DNA of 42,066 nt from Myxococcales bacterium (GTDB lineage Bacteria > Myxococcota_A > Polyangia > Polyangiales > Polyangiaceae): assembly GCA_013297655.1 (NCBI GenBank), contig JAAFHV010000050.1, positions 1-42,066 on the forward strand, read 5' to 3'. Each line of letters starts with the position of its first letter. Position 1 is the first letter of the stretch. The translations under genes were made by a program, and so were the position numbers. Positions 11,459 to 16,033 of the stretch are shown here, in pieces. The notes under the pieces were generated by a model that did no database searches, was not told the DNA's origin, and saw nothing but the letters and a program-made list of their open reading frames with translations.

Positions 11459-11983
11459 CTACTCGTGGGAGGGGAAGAGGTGGTCACGGCCCTGCGGCGC
11501 GTCGTCGTGGCAGCCCCAGCAGCGCTCCGATTTGCCGTCGAATACGAGGTTTCCGGCGGCGCCGACCACCACGTAGCGCCAGTCCCCGTGCTCAGGATCG
11601 AAGCCTTTTTCGCGCTTCTCCATCGCCATCGTGGGGCCTTTGTCGCCGCTCGGGCGCTCCACGTGCTCCATCAGGATCTTGGCGCCGACCTTCGCCTCGC
11701 GGACCTTCCCCTCGAAGGCGGCGCGGCCATCGTCGTTCGCGAGGAGCGTGTATTCCCAGCGGCCACCGGCGTGCCCGAGCGACGTGAAGCGGCCGGGGAC
11801 TGCGGTCACGCCGTCGCGGAGATCTTTCGGCGCGCCGTTCGCGACCTTCGCCTCCACCTTGGGCTTCGGCGCGGTGCGAGCCTTGTCCGAGGTGCCGACC
11901 GGATCGAGCGGGGGCGGGGGGCAGGCCGTGAGCAGCGCGCACGCGAGGGCTGCGAACGAGAGCAGCGAGACCGAACGAAGCAT
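11459..11983 (-). CDS. Cytochrome P460-like lipoprotein with one CxxCH motif
   Basis: A 174-aa protein from ATG 11983; further codons upstream are open but lack a signal. The N terminus is a lipoprotein signal (LLSFAALACALLTAC followed by PPPP). The C terminus carries CWGCH (155-159), a c-type haem site, followed by DDAPQGRDHLFP. The middle section (VPGRFTSLGHAGGRWEYTLL, EGKVREAKVGAKILMEHV, DWRYVVVGAAG) matches the cytochrome P460 pattern. Family members oxidise hydroxylamine or bind NO, but most lipoprotein versions are uncharacterised. It is divergent from trmL, only 46 bases away. Confidence 0.82.
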   Translation of the reverse strand: MLRSVSLLSFAALACALLTACPPPPLDPVGTSDKARTAPKPKVEAKVANGAPKDLRDGVTAVPGRFTSLGHAGGRWEYTLLANDDGRAAFEGKVREAKVGAKILMEHVERPSGDKGPTMAMEKREKGFDPEHGDWRYVVVGAAGNLVFDGKSERCWGCHDDAPQGRDHLFPSHE

Positions 11984-12029
11984 CGGCCGCGACCCTACAC
12001 GATGGCGCGAGCTTTGGTAGCGTGCGCCC

Positions 12030-12566
12030 GTGCCCCGCACCACCAACGAAACGAAGCGCCTCCGCGCGAGCCCCCCCGCGCGTCCGTTCCACGTCGTGCT
12101 CGTGGAGCCCGAGATCCCGCCGAACACGGGCAGCATCGCGCGCCTCTGCGCCGCCACGCAGTCCCCGCTCCACCTCGTCGGCAAGCTCGGCTTCCGCATC
12201 GACGAGCACGCCGTCCGCCGCGCGGGGGTCGATTATTGGCACTTGGTCGACGTGCAGACGCACCCGGATTTCGACGCGTTTTTGGCGCGATTCGCAGAGG
12301 TGTCCCCCGAAGGTGCGCTCCACTTGTTCACCGGCACCGCGACCGCGAGCTACTCCGAGCCTCGTTATGCAGGGGGCGACGCGCTCGTCTTCGGGAAAGA
12401 GAGCGTCGGCCTCTCGGACGAGCTCTTGGCGCGTTTTCCCGATCGTCAGGTCGCTATCCCCACGATTGGCGCAGTGCGCTCGTTGAACCTCGCCAACGCG
12501 GCGGGCATCGCGCTCTTCGAGGCCCTCCGCCAAGTGGGCACTTGGGAGAACGCGACCTTGGGGTGA
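12030..12566 (+). CDS. trmL: tRNA (cytidine(34)-2'-O)-methyltransferase, TrmL-like SPOUT enzyme
   Basis: A 178-aa SPOUT methyltransferase from a GTG at 12030. It shows the three conserved blocks: PPNTGSIARLCAA, LVFGKESVGLS and VRSLNLANAAGIALFEALRQ, which form the knotted S-adenosylmethionine site. TrmL methylates the 2'-OH of the wobble nucleotide of tRNA-Leu isoacceptors. The short length without an N-terminal RNA-binding domain favours TrmL over TrmH or RlmB. Residues 1-18 are a basic extension. Confidence 0.9.
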   Translation: MPRTTNETKRLRASPPARPFHVVLVEPEIPPNTGSIARLCAATQSPLHLVGKLGFRIDEHAVRRAGVDYWHLVDVQTHPDFDAFLARFAEVSPEGALHLFTGTATASYSEPRYAGGDALVFGKESVGLSDELLARFPDRQVAIPTIGAVRSLNLANAAGIALFEALRQVGTWENATLG

Positions 12567-12689: not shown

Positions 12690-13847
12690 ATGCCAGCGAA
12701 CGAGCCCCGCCGCGAGCCCACCCAAATCCACGTGCTCGTCGGGTGCTCCGACGCGCGCGACGTGGGTCAAGTCCACCTCGAGGTCGTCGAGAAGGTGCGC
12801 GCGGAGTACCTCGCCCGCGGCGTGCGGAGCGAGCTTTACGTGCTGCGTACGCCGGGCACGTTCGTCACGAAAGACGTGCTCCTCGACATCAAACGTGTCG
12901 TCGAGACCACCCGCCGCGAGGTAGGGCCAGACGAGCCGCTCGAGTACTTCGTGCATCTTTTGTCGCACGGGGAGCTCTCGATCGAGGGGGCGGAGCGTTT
13001 CCGCTGCGGGGTCCACGACCTCACGGTCGAACAGGGCTCCATGTTCAACTGTGGAATGCTCCAGGCCACGCGCGTGGCGGTCGATCTCGAGCGGCTCATC
13101 ATCGGGATAAAGCCCACGTTCGCGCTCCCGGACGGCACCTCGCTCACGGTGGAGGACGAGCGAGGCGTGCGCCGGCTCTTGCTCGCGCACTACGGCTACG
13201 ACGGGCACCTCGCCGGCGACTGGGTCAAAAGTGTCGACGATCTCCGCACCCACACGCGCCTCCAGAAGTCCGTCGTCGAGCGCGCCTTCCGCGACGATCC
13301 GGATTTGCGAAGGCTGAGCCTGCGTGTCACCGCCGGCATTCAGGATTATCGCCGCAACGCCTACGTGCGCGTCGACGGCGGTGAGCCGGATGGCAAATTC
13401 TGGGACGAGGGGCAGCGCCTCATCAATCAAACGTTGTCCGATTTGCCGCCCCATAGCATCGATCGCGCGCGCCAGTCGGAGGGCCAAATGCCGCTCGTCG
13501 GCCTCTTCGCGATGAGCGACATTCGTGGCTCCCGCGCGCGCGCCCTCGCCACCTACGCCGCGCTCCACCAGCGCCCCGTCACGAGCTACGAGCCGAACAC
13601 CGTATTCGCGATAAGCGGCAGCGCCCTCGACCTCCCCGACACGCCGTTCGGCCCCTATGCCGTGTGTGGCCTCTACTACAGCGCGCAGAGCCTAGGGCTC
13701 CGGCAATACCTGGTCATGGGCAGCTCCGATGCGCAGGTGGCGCGCATGATTCGGAAGGTAGAGTCCGATCCGCTCGTGTCGCTCGTGGTCAATCACTTCC
13801 GGATCGCGCTCGTGCCGTCCGTCGTCGAAGCGCCGCGCACCGCATGA
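12690..13847 (+). CDS. Two-lobed protein with beta-carbonic-anhydrase-like motifs, coupled to bestrophin
   Basis: A 385-aa cytosolic protein. The N-terminal lobe has HVLVGC19-S-D21-A-R23, then VLRTPGT (51-57) and FVHLLSH93GEL, in the order of the beta-CA signatures CxDSR, RNxxN and GHxxC. The Cys of HxxC is Leu here, so the zinc site is altered. The C-terminal lobe repeats the layout in degenerate form: GLFAMSDIR (271-279, Met for Cys) and LGLRQYLVMGSSDAQV (335-350, like beta-CA LG-x-x-x-I-x-V-x-GH-x-x-C-G-A). One partial plus one decayed lobe recalls the layout of carboxysomal CsoSCA and LCIB-like proteins. The stop overlaps the bestrophin ATG. The ATG at 12690 is chosen; an in-frame ATG at 12597 adds an unlikely basic leader. 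The carbonic-anhydrase link is inference from motifs. Confidence 0.75.
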   Translation: MPANEPRREPTQIHVLVGCSDARDVGQVHLEVVEKVRAEYLARGVRSELYVLRTPGTFVTKDVLLDIKRVVETTRREVGPDEPLEYFVHLLSHGELSIEGAERFRCGVHDLTVEQGSMFNCGMLQATRVAVDLERLIIGIKPTFALPDGTSLTVEDERGVRRLLLAHYGYDGHLAGDWVKSVDDLRTHTRLQKSVVERAFRDDPDLRRLSLRVTAGIQDYRRNAYVRVDGGEPDGKFWDEGQRLINQTLSDLPPHSIDRARQSEGQMPLVGLFAMSDIRGSRARALATYAALHQRPVTSYEPNTVFAISGSALDLPDTPFGPYAVCGLYYSAQSLGLRQYLVMGSSDAQVARMIRKVESDPLVSLVVNHFRIALVPSVVEAPRTA

Positions 13848-14782
13848 TCCTCTACGAGCGTACGACGTGGCTCAAGATGGTCTTTCGTGTGCACGGCAGC
13901 GTCGTGCGGCGTATTTGGCCACGGTTCTTCGTGACCACCCTCATCGCGGCGGCGCTCACTGCGTTGCAGACCGACCCCCGTTTCAAGATATCGCTCACCG
14001 TCGCGCCATTTCTTATTACCGGCTTGCCGCTCGGCATCATCCTCGGCTTCCGAAACTCGTCCAGCTACGACCGGTTTTGGGAGGGGAGGAAGCTCTGGGG
14101 CGCGCTCACCAACCAGTGCCGTACGTTCGTCCGCCAGCTCCACACCATCGTCGTGCCGCCGCAGGGGGAGGCCGAGGGGGCGGCGCTCGATGCCTATCGT
14201 AAGGAAATGACGTACACGCTCGTCGCGGTCGCCCTTTCGCTGCGAATGCACCTCCGCCGCGAGACGAACCGTGAAGAGCTCGGCCCCTATTTGCCAGCGG
14301 GCGACATCGAAGCGCTCGCGACGGAAGCCTCCCCCCCGAGTGCGCTCGTTCATCGCCTCGGCCTCGTGCTTCGGCGCGCCGCGAGCGAAGGCTACGTGCA
14401 CCCGATGCACGTCCCGATACTGGAGAGCACGCTCGCCCAGCTCACCGACGTGATCGGCGGCTGCGAGCGAATCAAGAACACGCCCACCCCCATAAGCTAC
14501 ATCATCTTCATTCACCGTGCGGTCGCGGTCTACGCGGTTCTCCTCCCGTTCGGCCTCGTCGACACCGTTCATGCGCTGACGCCGGTGGTCGTCTTTTTTA
14601 TCTCGTATGCCTTCTTCAGCCTCGACGCGATAGGCGACGAGCTCGACGATCCGTTTCGCCACTCCGAAAATGGGCTCCCGCTCGCCACCCTCGCGCGGGG
14701 AATCGAGATTTACGCTAGGAAGCGCCTCGGCGACACGGAGCTGCCCGCGCCGATGGTCCCGGTCAACGGCGTCTCGCTCTGA
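13844..14782 (+). CDS. Bestrophin family anion channel
   Basis: A 312-aa membrane protein. It has the bestrophin signatures SYDRFWEGRKLWG, the NTPTPISYIIFIHR helix and DELDDPF near the C terminus, with about four membrane segments. Bacterial bestrophins form pentameric channels conducting anions or cations, and algal thylakoid members carry bicarbonate. The ATG at 13844 overlaps the preceding stop (ATGA), so it is translated together with the carbonic-anhydrase-like protein. Codons upstream remain open in frame but overlap the other gene entirely, and the protein start MILYERTTWLKMVFRVHGS is typical for the family. Confidence 0.93.
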   Translation: MILYERTTWLKMVFRVHGSVVRRIWPRFFVTTLIAAALTALQTDPRFKISLTVAPFLITGLPLGIILGFRNSSSYDRFWEGRKLWGALTNQCRTFVRQLHTIVVPPQGEAEGAALDAYRKEMTYTLVAVALSLRMHLRRETNREELGPYLPAGDIEALATEASPPSALVHRLGLVLRRAASEGYVHPMHVPILESTLAQLTDVIGGCERIKNTPTPISYIIFIHRAVAVYAVLLPFGLVDTVHALTPVVVFFISYAFFSLDAIGDELDDPFRHSENGLPLATLARGIEIYARKRLGDTELPAPMVPVNGVSL

Positions 14783-14869: not shown

Positions 14870-16033
14870 TCACTCGAACGCGGAGATCCCCGTCACGTGC
14901 TGGCCCAAGATCAGCGTGTGAACGTCGTGTGTTCCCTCGTACGTCGACACCGTCTCCAAATTGCAGAGGTGGCGCATAATCGGGTATTCCAGCGTAATCC
15001 CGTTGCCGCCGAGGATGTCGCGGCAGGTGCGGGCCACCTCCAGCGCGGTGCGCACGTTGTGGCGCTTGATCATGCTCACGTGCTGGGGGAGCATCTTCTT
15101 TTCGGCCTTGAGGCGGCTCGTCTCCATCACCATGAGCTGCCCGGCCGAGATCTGCGAGAACATCTCCGCGAACTTGGCCTGCACGAGCTGGTGCGACGCG
15201 ATCGGCTTTCCGCCGAACTGCACGCGGTGTTTGGCGTAGTCGAGGGCACAGTCGAAACAAGCCTCCGCCGCGCCGAGCACGCCCCACGCGATCCCGAAGC
15301 GGGCAGAGGTGAGCGTCGCGAGGGGGCCCTTCATGCCGCGCACGTTCGGCAACATGGCGCTCTTCGGGATACGCACGTCCTCCATGATGAGCTCGCTCGT
15401 CACGCTCGCGCGGAGGCTCATCTTCTTGTGAATCAGGCGCGCCTCGAAGCCCTTCGTCTCCGTCGGGACGACGAAGCCACGAACCTCGCCGGTCGTATTT
15501 CCCAGCTTCGCCCACACGATGGCGATTTGGGCCAAGTTGCCATTCGTGATCCAGCGCTTCGTCCCGTTCAATACGTAGGAGTCGCCGTCGTCCACCGCGG
15601 TGGTGATCATGCCGCCCGGGTTCGAGCCCCAGTCCGGCTCGGTGAGGCCGAAACAGCCGATGATCTTCCCCTTCGCCATCTCGGGGAGGTAGCGGTTCTT
15701 TTGCTCCTCCGAGCCCCACGAGTGAATGGGATACATCGCGAGGCTGCCTTGCACGCTCGCGAAGCTGCGAATCCCGGAGTCCCCCCGCTCGAGCTCTTGC
15801 ATCGCGAGGCCGTAACCGATGTCGGAGAGGCCAGCGCAGCCGTATCCTTGTAGATTGCACCCAAGGAGGCCGAGCTCGGCGATCTCGGGGATGAGCTCAC
15901 GCGGGAACGTCCCGTGCTCGAAGTGCTCCGCGATGATAGGGAGCACGCGAGCGTCCACGAACTTGCGGACGCTCGTCTTGATGGCGCGTTCTTCGTCGGT
16001 CAGGTGGCGAGCGATATCGAAAAAGTCGGGCAT
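14870..16033 (-). CDS. gcdH: Glutaryl-CoA dehydrogenase (acyl-CoA dehydrogenase family)
   Basis: A 387-aa flavoprotein. FGLTEPDWGSNPGGM is the FAD/substrate loop, RWITNG follows, and TYEGTHDVHTLILGQHVTGI near the C terminus carries the catalytic Glu in the context typical of glutaryl-CoA dehydrogenases. These oxidise and decarboxylate glutaryl-CoA to crotonyl-CoA in lysine and tryptophan breakdown, passing electrons to ETF. Length and start match the family. No pathway partner lies next to it. A decarboxylating role is likely, but specificity for glutaryl-CoA over other acyl-CoAs is from motif resemblance. Confidence 0.9.
   Translation of the reverse strand: MPDFFDIARHLTDEERAIKTSVRKFVDARVLPIIAEHFEHGTFPRELIPEIAELGLLGCNLQGYGCAGLSDIGYGLAMQELERGDSGIRSFASVQGSLAMYPIHSWGSEEQKNRYLPEMAKGKIIGCFGLTEPDWGSNPGGMITTAVDDGDSYVLNGTKRWITNGNLAQIAIVWAKLGNTTGEVRGFVVPTETKGFEARLIHKKMSLRASVTSELIMEDVRIPKSAMLPNVRGMKGPLATLTSARFGIAWGVLGAAEACFDCALDYAKHRVQFGGKPIASHQLVQAKFAEMFSQISAGQLMVMETSRLKAEKKMLPQHVSMIKRHNVRTALEVARTCRDILGGNGITLEYPIMRHLCNLETVSTYEGTHDVHTLILGQHVTGISAFE

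Follow-up and report, generated by a model that had tools for sequence, protein, structure and literature searches.

A divergent β-carbonic-anhydrase-like protein encoded in overlap with a bestrophin channel gene in the Polyangiaceae

In algae, bestrophins have been proposed to bring bicarbonate to carbonic anhydrases (CAs) (PMC6708349). Human bestrophins conduct HCO3− well, whereas the bestrophin of Klebsiella (KpBest) has an I-I-F neck and conducts Na+, the I66F exchange shifting it towards Cl− (PMC8496536). Among the CAs, CsoSCA is described as having the zinc ligands Cys173, His242 and Cys253, with a His-to-Cys spacing of 11, and as comprising a catalytic and a C-terminal domain (PMC12646314). 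In the literature searched, which had most subscription journals outside its range and was in part accessible only as excerpts, we found no description of bacterial operons that join a β-CA and a bestrophin.

Here we analysed a window (the whole stretch of DNA under study, 42,066 nucleotides, which is contig C446 within a 9.9-Mb draft genome of the Polyangiaceae), in which an orphan ORF encoding 385 amino acids immediately precedes the gene of a bestrophin (Table 1). The TGA stop codon of the 385-aa ORF (13845-13847) overlaps the ATG of the bestrophin gene (13844-13846), so that four bases are shared. The overlap of stop and start claimed in the original prediction is therefore borne out, whereas its description of the two proteins as translationally fused is not, the pair being two overlapping ORFs.

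Table 1. Coordinates, in the window, of the gene pair, its two lobes and the adjacent genes.
Feature	Position	Strand	Remarks
SpoU/TrmL-like RNA methyltransferase	12030-12566	+	Below the cut-off of the TrmL model
385-aa orphan protein	12690-13847	+	ATG start; β-CA-like in both halves (β-CA profile tests)
Lobe 1 (residues 7-153 as cut)	12708-13148	+	C19-x-D21-x-R23, R53-T-P-G, S-H93-G, C106, C121-G-M-L
Lobe 2 (residues 236-385 as cut)	13395-13844	+	MSDIR, TVFAISG, GLYYSAQSLGLRQYLVMGSSDAQ
Bestrophin, 312 aa, Bestrophin_2 family channel protein	13844-14782	+	Pfam PF25539, E 3.4e-89
Acyl-CoA dehydrogenase	14870-16033	−	First gene 3' of the bestrophin

The methyltransferase gene lies on the same strand, separated from the 385-aa ORF by a gap of 123 bp, and family searches of the scanned neighbours in the window identified, besides this TrmL-like protein, a quinone oxidoreductase, the acyl-CoA dehydrogenase and a kinase. 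The stretch 11459-12199 on the reverse strand has a weak match to cytochrome P460 (E 0.019, below cut-off) and contains a CWGCH haem-type motif. The acyl-CoA dehydrogenase beside the window's bestrophin, on the opposite strand, has a parallel in two other genomes (L017 and L021), where frames that by eye resemble acyl-CoA dehydrogenases adjoin bestrophins of the window's clade; chance is a possible reason.

A single distinct homologue of the 385-aa protein was found, 76% identical, on contig C737 of genome G028 (locus L002, JABFRG010000085.1 of a Polyangiaceae MAG); the first 3019 bases of a further locus, L003, from the genome_contigs set, are identical to L002. The comparison between the window and L002 makes the 385-aa ORF look like a genuine gene, with 132 codon differences that are synonymous and 94 that are not, and with base differences distributed over the three codon positions as 75/50/186, the third being the heaviest. 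In L002 and L003 the homologue is likewise followed by a bestrophin gene (GTG start, product 68% identical to that of the window) with a 4-base overlap; the two traits singled out in the original prediction, CSDAR and the linkage to a bestrophin, are both kept in the only distinct homologue found. Its other neighbours are a 3' ORF on the opposite strand and, on the 5' side, the apparent start of a divergent gene (by eye). Since these differ from the neighbours in the window, only the two genes belong, as far as the loci show, to the conserved unit, and this pair is kept in two genera.

The distribution of the 385-aa protein is narrow: it was found in 2 of 59 relatives, 2 of the 108 family genomes and 2 of the 183 order genomes, and in the phylum sample in 1 of 377 genomes, which is the window's own. 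No homologue was found in viral contigs, plasmids or phages. With a threshold of E up to 0.1, ten of the 183 order genomes gave a match, namely the two homologues plus eight others, weak and local, which we rejected: by eye, on both strands, these eight are unrelated proteins or low-complexity frames, none with the motifs in order. A six-frame search of 29 other Myxococcota bestrophin loci (L005-L033), covering in most cases about 1.5 kb on each side, gave no homologue of the 385-aa protein. The scan of genome_contigs used two short peptides as query, a design by which distant homologues would be missed.

Searches of NCBIfam (E up to 1) and PHROGs (E up to 5) with the 385-aa protein gave no match; Pfam gave a single weak one, below cut-off (DUF6745, E 0.19), and no PDB sequence scored better than E 0.7. 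The β-CA family PF00484 was absent from the results for the window protein at E up to 5 and for the homologue at E up to 1, and the window protein gave no Pfam match at E up to 5 to PF08936 (CsoSCA), PF18599 (LCIB) or PF00656 (caspase). In an ordinary HMM search with a profile of 15 β-CA sequences neither protein scored significantly (window protein E 2, homologue E 5.7), and two unrelated control ORFs outscored the window protein, which places the β-CA resemblance of the 385-aa protein at the limit of detection. When whole proteins were compared with the same 15-sequence profile using hhalign, both homologues came ahead of 307 control ORFs.

A later profile was built from 31 β-CAs of relatives (32 loci, of which the fragment L058 was left out) and compared by hhalign with 150-aa fragments; 700 of 735 fragments, chosen at random from ORFs of the window and of 20 stretches from the genome of the relative G048, served as controls. 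Half 1 scored 32.1 in the window protein and 31.1 in the homologue, values reached by none of the 700 controls in either case, whereas one and eight controls, respectively, reached the scores for half 2 (26.4 and 21.1), and 37 and 35 reached those for the middle third. Each half of the 385-aa protein is thereby shown statistically, at the level of sequence profiles, to resemble a β-CA above controls, as had been predicted for both halves, and the carbonic-anhydrase lead of the original prediction is better founded than a reading of the sequence alone could show. On these comparisons we call the 385-aa protein β-CA-like, without assigning it to PF00484, CsoSCA or LCIB.

The motifs CSDAR, RTPG and SHGEL, which had been noticed in the first half of the protein, are present there at residues 19, 53 and 92, with MSDIR at 275 and MGSSD at 343 in the second half. 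Lobe 1 shares with β-CAs the order in which these motifs are predicted to follow the secondary structure (CxDxR ending strand 1, R-x-x-G/N after strand 2, and the His ending strand 3), as well as the linkage to a bestrophin gene, which canonical β-CA genes adjoin in at least 11 relatives (see below). The motif C-x-D-x-R is complete (C19-S-D21-A-R23) and kept in L002. The differences are also considerable, since the 385-aa protein combines two lobes in one chain, the distance from the motif-1 Cys to the motif-2 Arg is 34 residues, compared with 22 in all 31 β-CAs, and HxxC is missing. In the 31 β-CAs of the profile, where a GHxxC search located it, the second Cys stands 3 residues after the His; here the sequence reads H93-G-E-L96.

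The replacement of the HxxC cysteine by Leu was therefore correctly predicted (position +3 is Leu96), but a broken site does not necessarily follow, because C121 or C106, which lie 28 and 13 residues after H93, could substitute for it. As the His-to-Cys spacing varies across CA families, either could be the third ligand, and the zinc site of lobe 1 may have shifted to another position instead of being lost. In favour of C121, the profile alignment of the homologue places it opposite the HxxC Cys of β-CAs, and the same pairing recurs in three MAFFT runs and in a second, weak alternative alignment; as all of these draw on common sequences, they do not count as independent. H93 is misplaced in the MAFFT runs, and the profile alignment of the homologue misregisters the middle strands. 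A forced-global alignment pairs C106, and not C121, with the β-CA Cys, while the window protein's own best alignment over lobe 1 ends before C121. The homologue has three Cys only, the equivalents of C19, C106 and C121, and it retains C19, D21, R23, H93 and C121.

Such a displacement would have parallels in two other CA families. In CsoSCA, too, the His-to-Cys arrangement is not HxxC, a C-terminal domain accompanies the catalytic one, the Cys-to-His distance is comparable (69 residues, against 74 in the 385-aa protein), and the spacing of 11 would suit C106. In contrast, an N-terminal domain precedes the catalytic one in CsoSCA, whereas lobe 1 of the 385-aa protein begins at the N-terminus, and the Pfam model of CsoSCA is not matched. 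In three Myxococcota members of LCIB a motif count places C-G-A-L 24 residues after the His, a likeness to H93 and C121-G-M-L, at 28, in the 385-aa protein, and H93 and C121 align with the LCIB His and Cys, with a score that is not significant. We rejected LCIB membership: the likeness of the H...C-G-x-L pattern is one of letters, motif 1 reads CRDE in those members and CSDAR here, and the score of half 1 against a three-sequence LCIB profile did not beat the controls, being reached by 103 of 700 for the window protein and 53 of 700 for the homologue.

Lobe 2 lacks the motif Cys, His and Cys, all three ligand positions being altered. The second half had been called decayed, which is true of the motif letters but not of the conservation, since the window protein and its homologue share 98 of 125 residues in lobe 1 and 91 of 116 in lobe 2, that is 78% in each. 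A lobe without ligands that is conserved like lobe 1 would have been retained for some role. The profile alignment of lobe 2 with β-CAs brings motifs opposite motifs along its length, and its aligned M275 and S309 lie 34 residues apart, as do C19 and R53, so the longer stretch would be common to both lobes; direct comparison of half 1 with half 2 detected no similarity.

The loss of all three ligand positions in lobe 2, together with the absence of a literal HxxC in lobe 1, is what might be expected if the protein were a catalytically dead relative of CAs, gating the bestrophin in response to CO2, HCO3− or some other anion that it senses. The equal conservation of the two lobes might also suit a binding or regulatory protein, and the host genome already encodes three ordinary, canonical β-CAs that would be available for bulk catalysis. 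A dead enzyme, however, need not keep C19, D21, R23, H93 and C121, which the homologue does (two sequences being weak evidence), and elsewhere the partner of the bestrophin is a β-CA with both CxDxR and HxxC. We consider such a sensor fairly unlikely.

Structure prediction was carried out with AlphaFold using alignments of the two sequences only, the β-CA sequences being left out to avoid circularity, and gave low-confidence models (mean pLDDT 40 with the full-length protein and 55 with lobe 1). In lobe 1 the predicted elements run strand, helix, strand, helix, strand and a low-confidence hairpin, an order that suits a β-CA, and also many other α/β folds. Three fold searches with these models found no CA and no clear match among the 50 matches listed for each, an outcome that weighs neither for nor against a CA fold; those listed are generic α/β or other proteins, including caspases, a metacaspase and Rossmann-like proteins. 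These results raise the alternative that the 385-aa protein belongs to another α/β superfamily, for instance a caspase-like one, and resembles CxDxR by chance. SHGE is indeed similar to the caspase histidine motif, and the stretch from motif 1 to motif 2 is 12 residues longer than in every β-CA of the profile. Against a profile built from 23 caspase-family domains of Myxococcota, half 2 reached scores attained by 7 of 700 controls (window protein) and 40 of 700 (homologue). Half 1, however, did not stand out from the controls with this profile (220 and 146 of 700 reached its scores), while none did so with the β-CA profile; half 2 also does better with β-CAs, with which it aligns motif to motif. 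We thus rejected a caspase-like fold, and regard membership of another superfamily in general as distinctly unlikely.

A survey of bestrophin neighbourhoods, as had been proposed, here within the order, did reveal a linkage with CA, in the form of an ordinary β-CA. In at least 11 of the 183 order genomes, all other than that of the window, a canonical β-CA gene adjoins a bestrophin gene on the same strand, with distances from a 4-base overlap to 18 bp (match coordinates were compared by eye and the DNA of the 11 pairs was read, with start codons as chosen). The CA gene comes first in G008 and G033 (cut by the contig end in the latter), and the bestrophin gene in G055, G369, G458, G459, G460, G461, G040, G049 and G222; the loci are L103 to L112 and L094. 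In three of them, from one genus (L109, L110 and L094), the bestrophin that precedes the β-CA is very divergent (24-26% identical to that of the window), with a longer reading frame that was matched in two pieces.

In a tree of 44 bestrophins, whose unlinked members were mostly picked for similarity to the window's bestrophin and are not a random sample, the CA-linked proteins are spread over three clades with support, and a fourth (100/100) holds the two linked to the orphan protein. The four linkage labels need 4 changes on this tree, compared with a mean of 12.3 after shuffling. Two of the three CA-linked clades lie together on one long-branched side, so that three clades are not necessarily three origins.

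These operons also bear on the substrate. Carbonyl sulfide and carbon disulfide hydrolases exist within the β-CA fold, and the 385-aa sequence is far from ordinary CAs, so it could be a hydrolase of this kind, coupled to an anion channel that would carry the product. But the few neighbours scanned are free of sulfur chemistry, and the parallel operons carry an ordinary β-CA, which makes a substrate of this sort very improbable.

KpBest is, to our knowledge, the best studied of the bacterial bestrophins. The window's protein is a full-length member of the prokaryotic bestrophin family to which KpBest belongs (profile positions 1-285 of 288), and matches bestrophin chains in the PDB with E about 1e-50, which would include those of KpBest (4wd7/4wd8). 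Its neck reads L-I-F, a sequence shared by 20 of the 31 unlinked rows of the tree, all 31 of which have Ile in the middle; among the 11 CA-linked bestrophins the middle residue is Leu in six, Phe in four and Ile in one. By the neck rule for ion selectivity, which rests on few proteins, the window channel looks closer to KpBest than to an anion channel, and its middle Ile, as in KpBest, counts against a bicarbonate reading.

Weighing these observations, we give an even chance to the reading that the two genes form a unit handling CO2/bicarbonate at the cytoplasmic membrane, in which the upstream protein is divergent and possibly active as a β-CA-like enzyme. The 385-aa protein would then be a pseudo-dimeric β-CA-like protein in one chain, with the active site in lobe 1, where zinc would be bound by C19, H93 and, as the likeliest third ligand, C121. 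Beside the pore of the bestrophin it would interconvert CO2 and HCO3−, so that one would feed or drain the other. More tentatively, and with doubt outweighing belief, the protein could represent a new subclass of CA, single-chain and pseudo-dimeric, with its third ligand 28 residues past the His (C19-H93-C121), and dedicated through translational coupling to its bestrophin; CA-bestrophin pairs would then have been invented several times in bacteria, this being one case.

The recurrence of β-CA-bestrophin operons in bacteria, together with this orphan variant, makes a bacterial counterpart of the algal system testable in systems of two genes, and the orphan 385-aa protein itself tests how far the active site of a β-CA can be rearranged.
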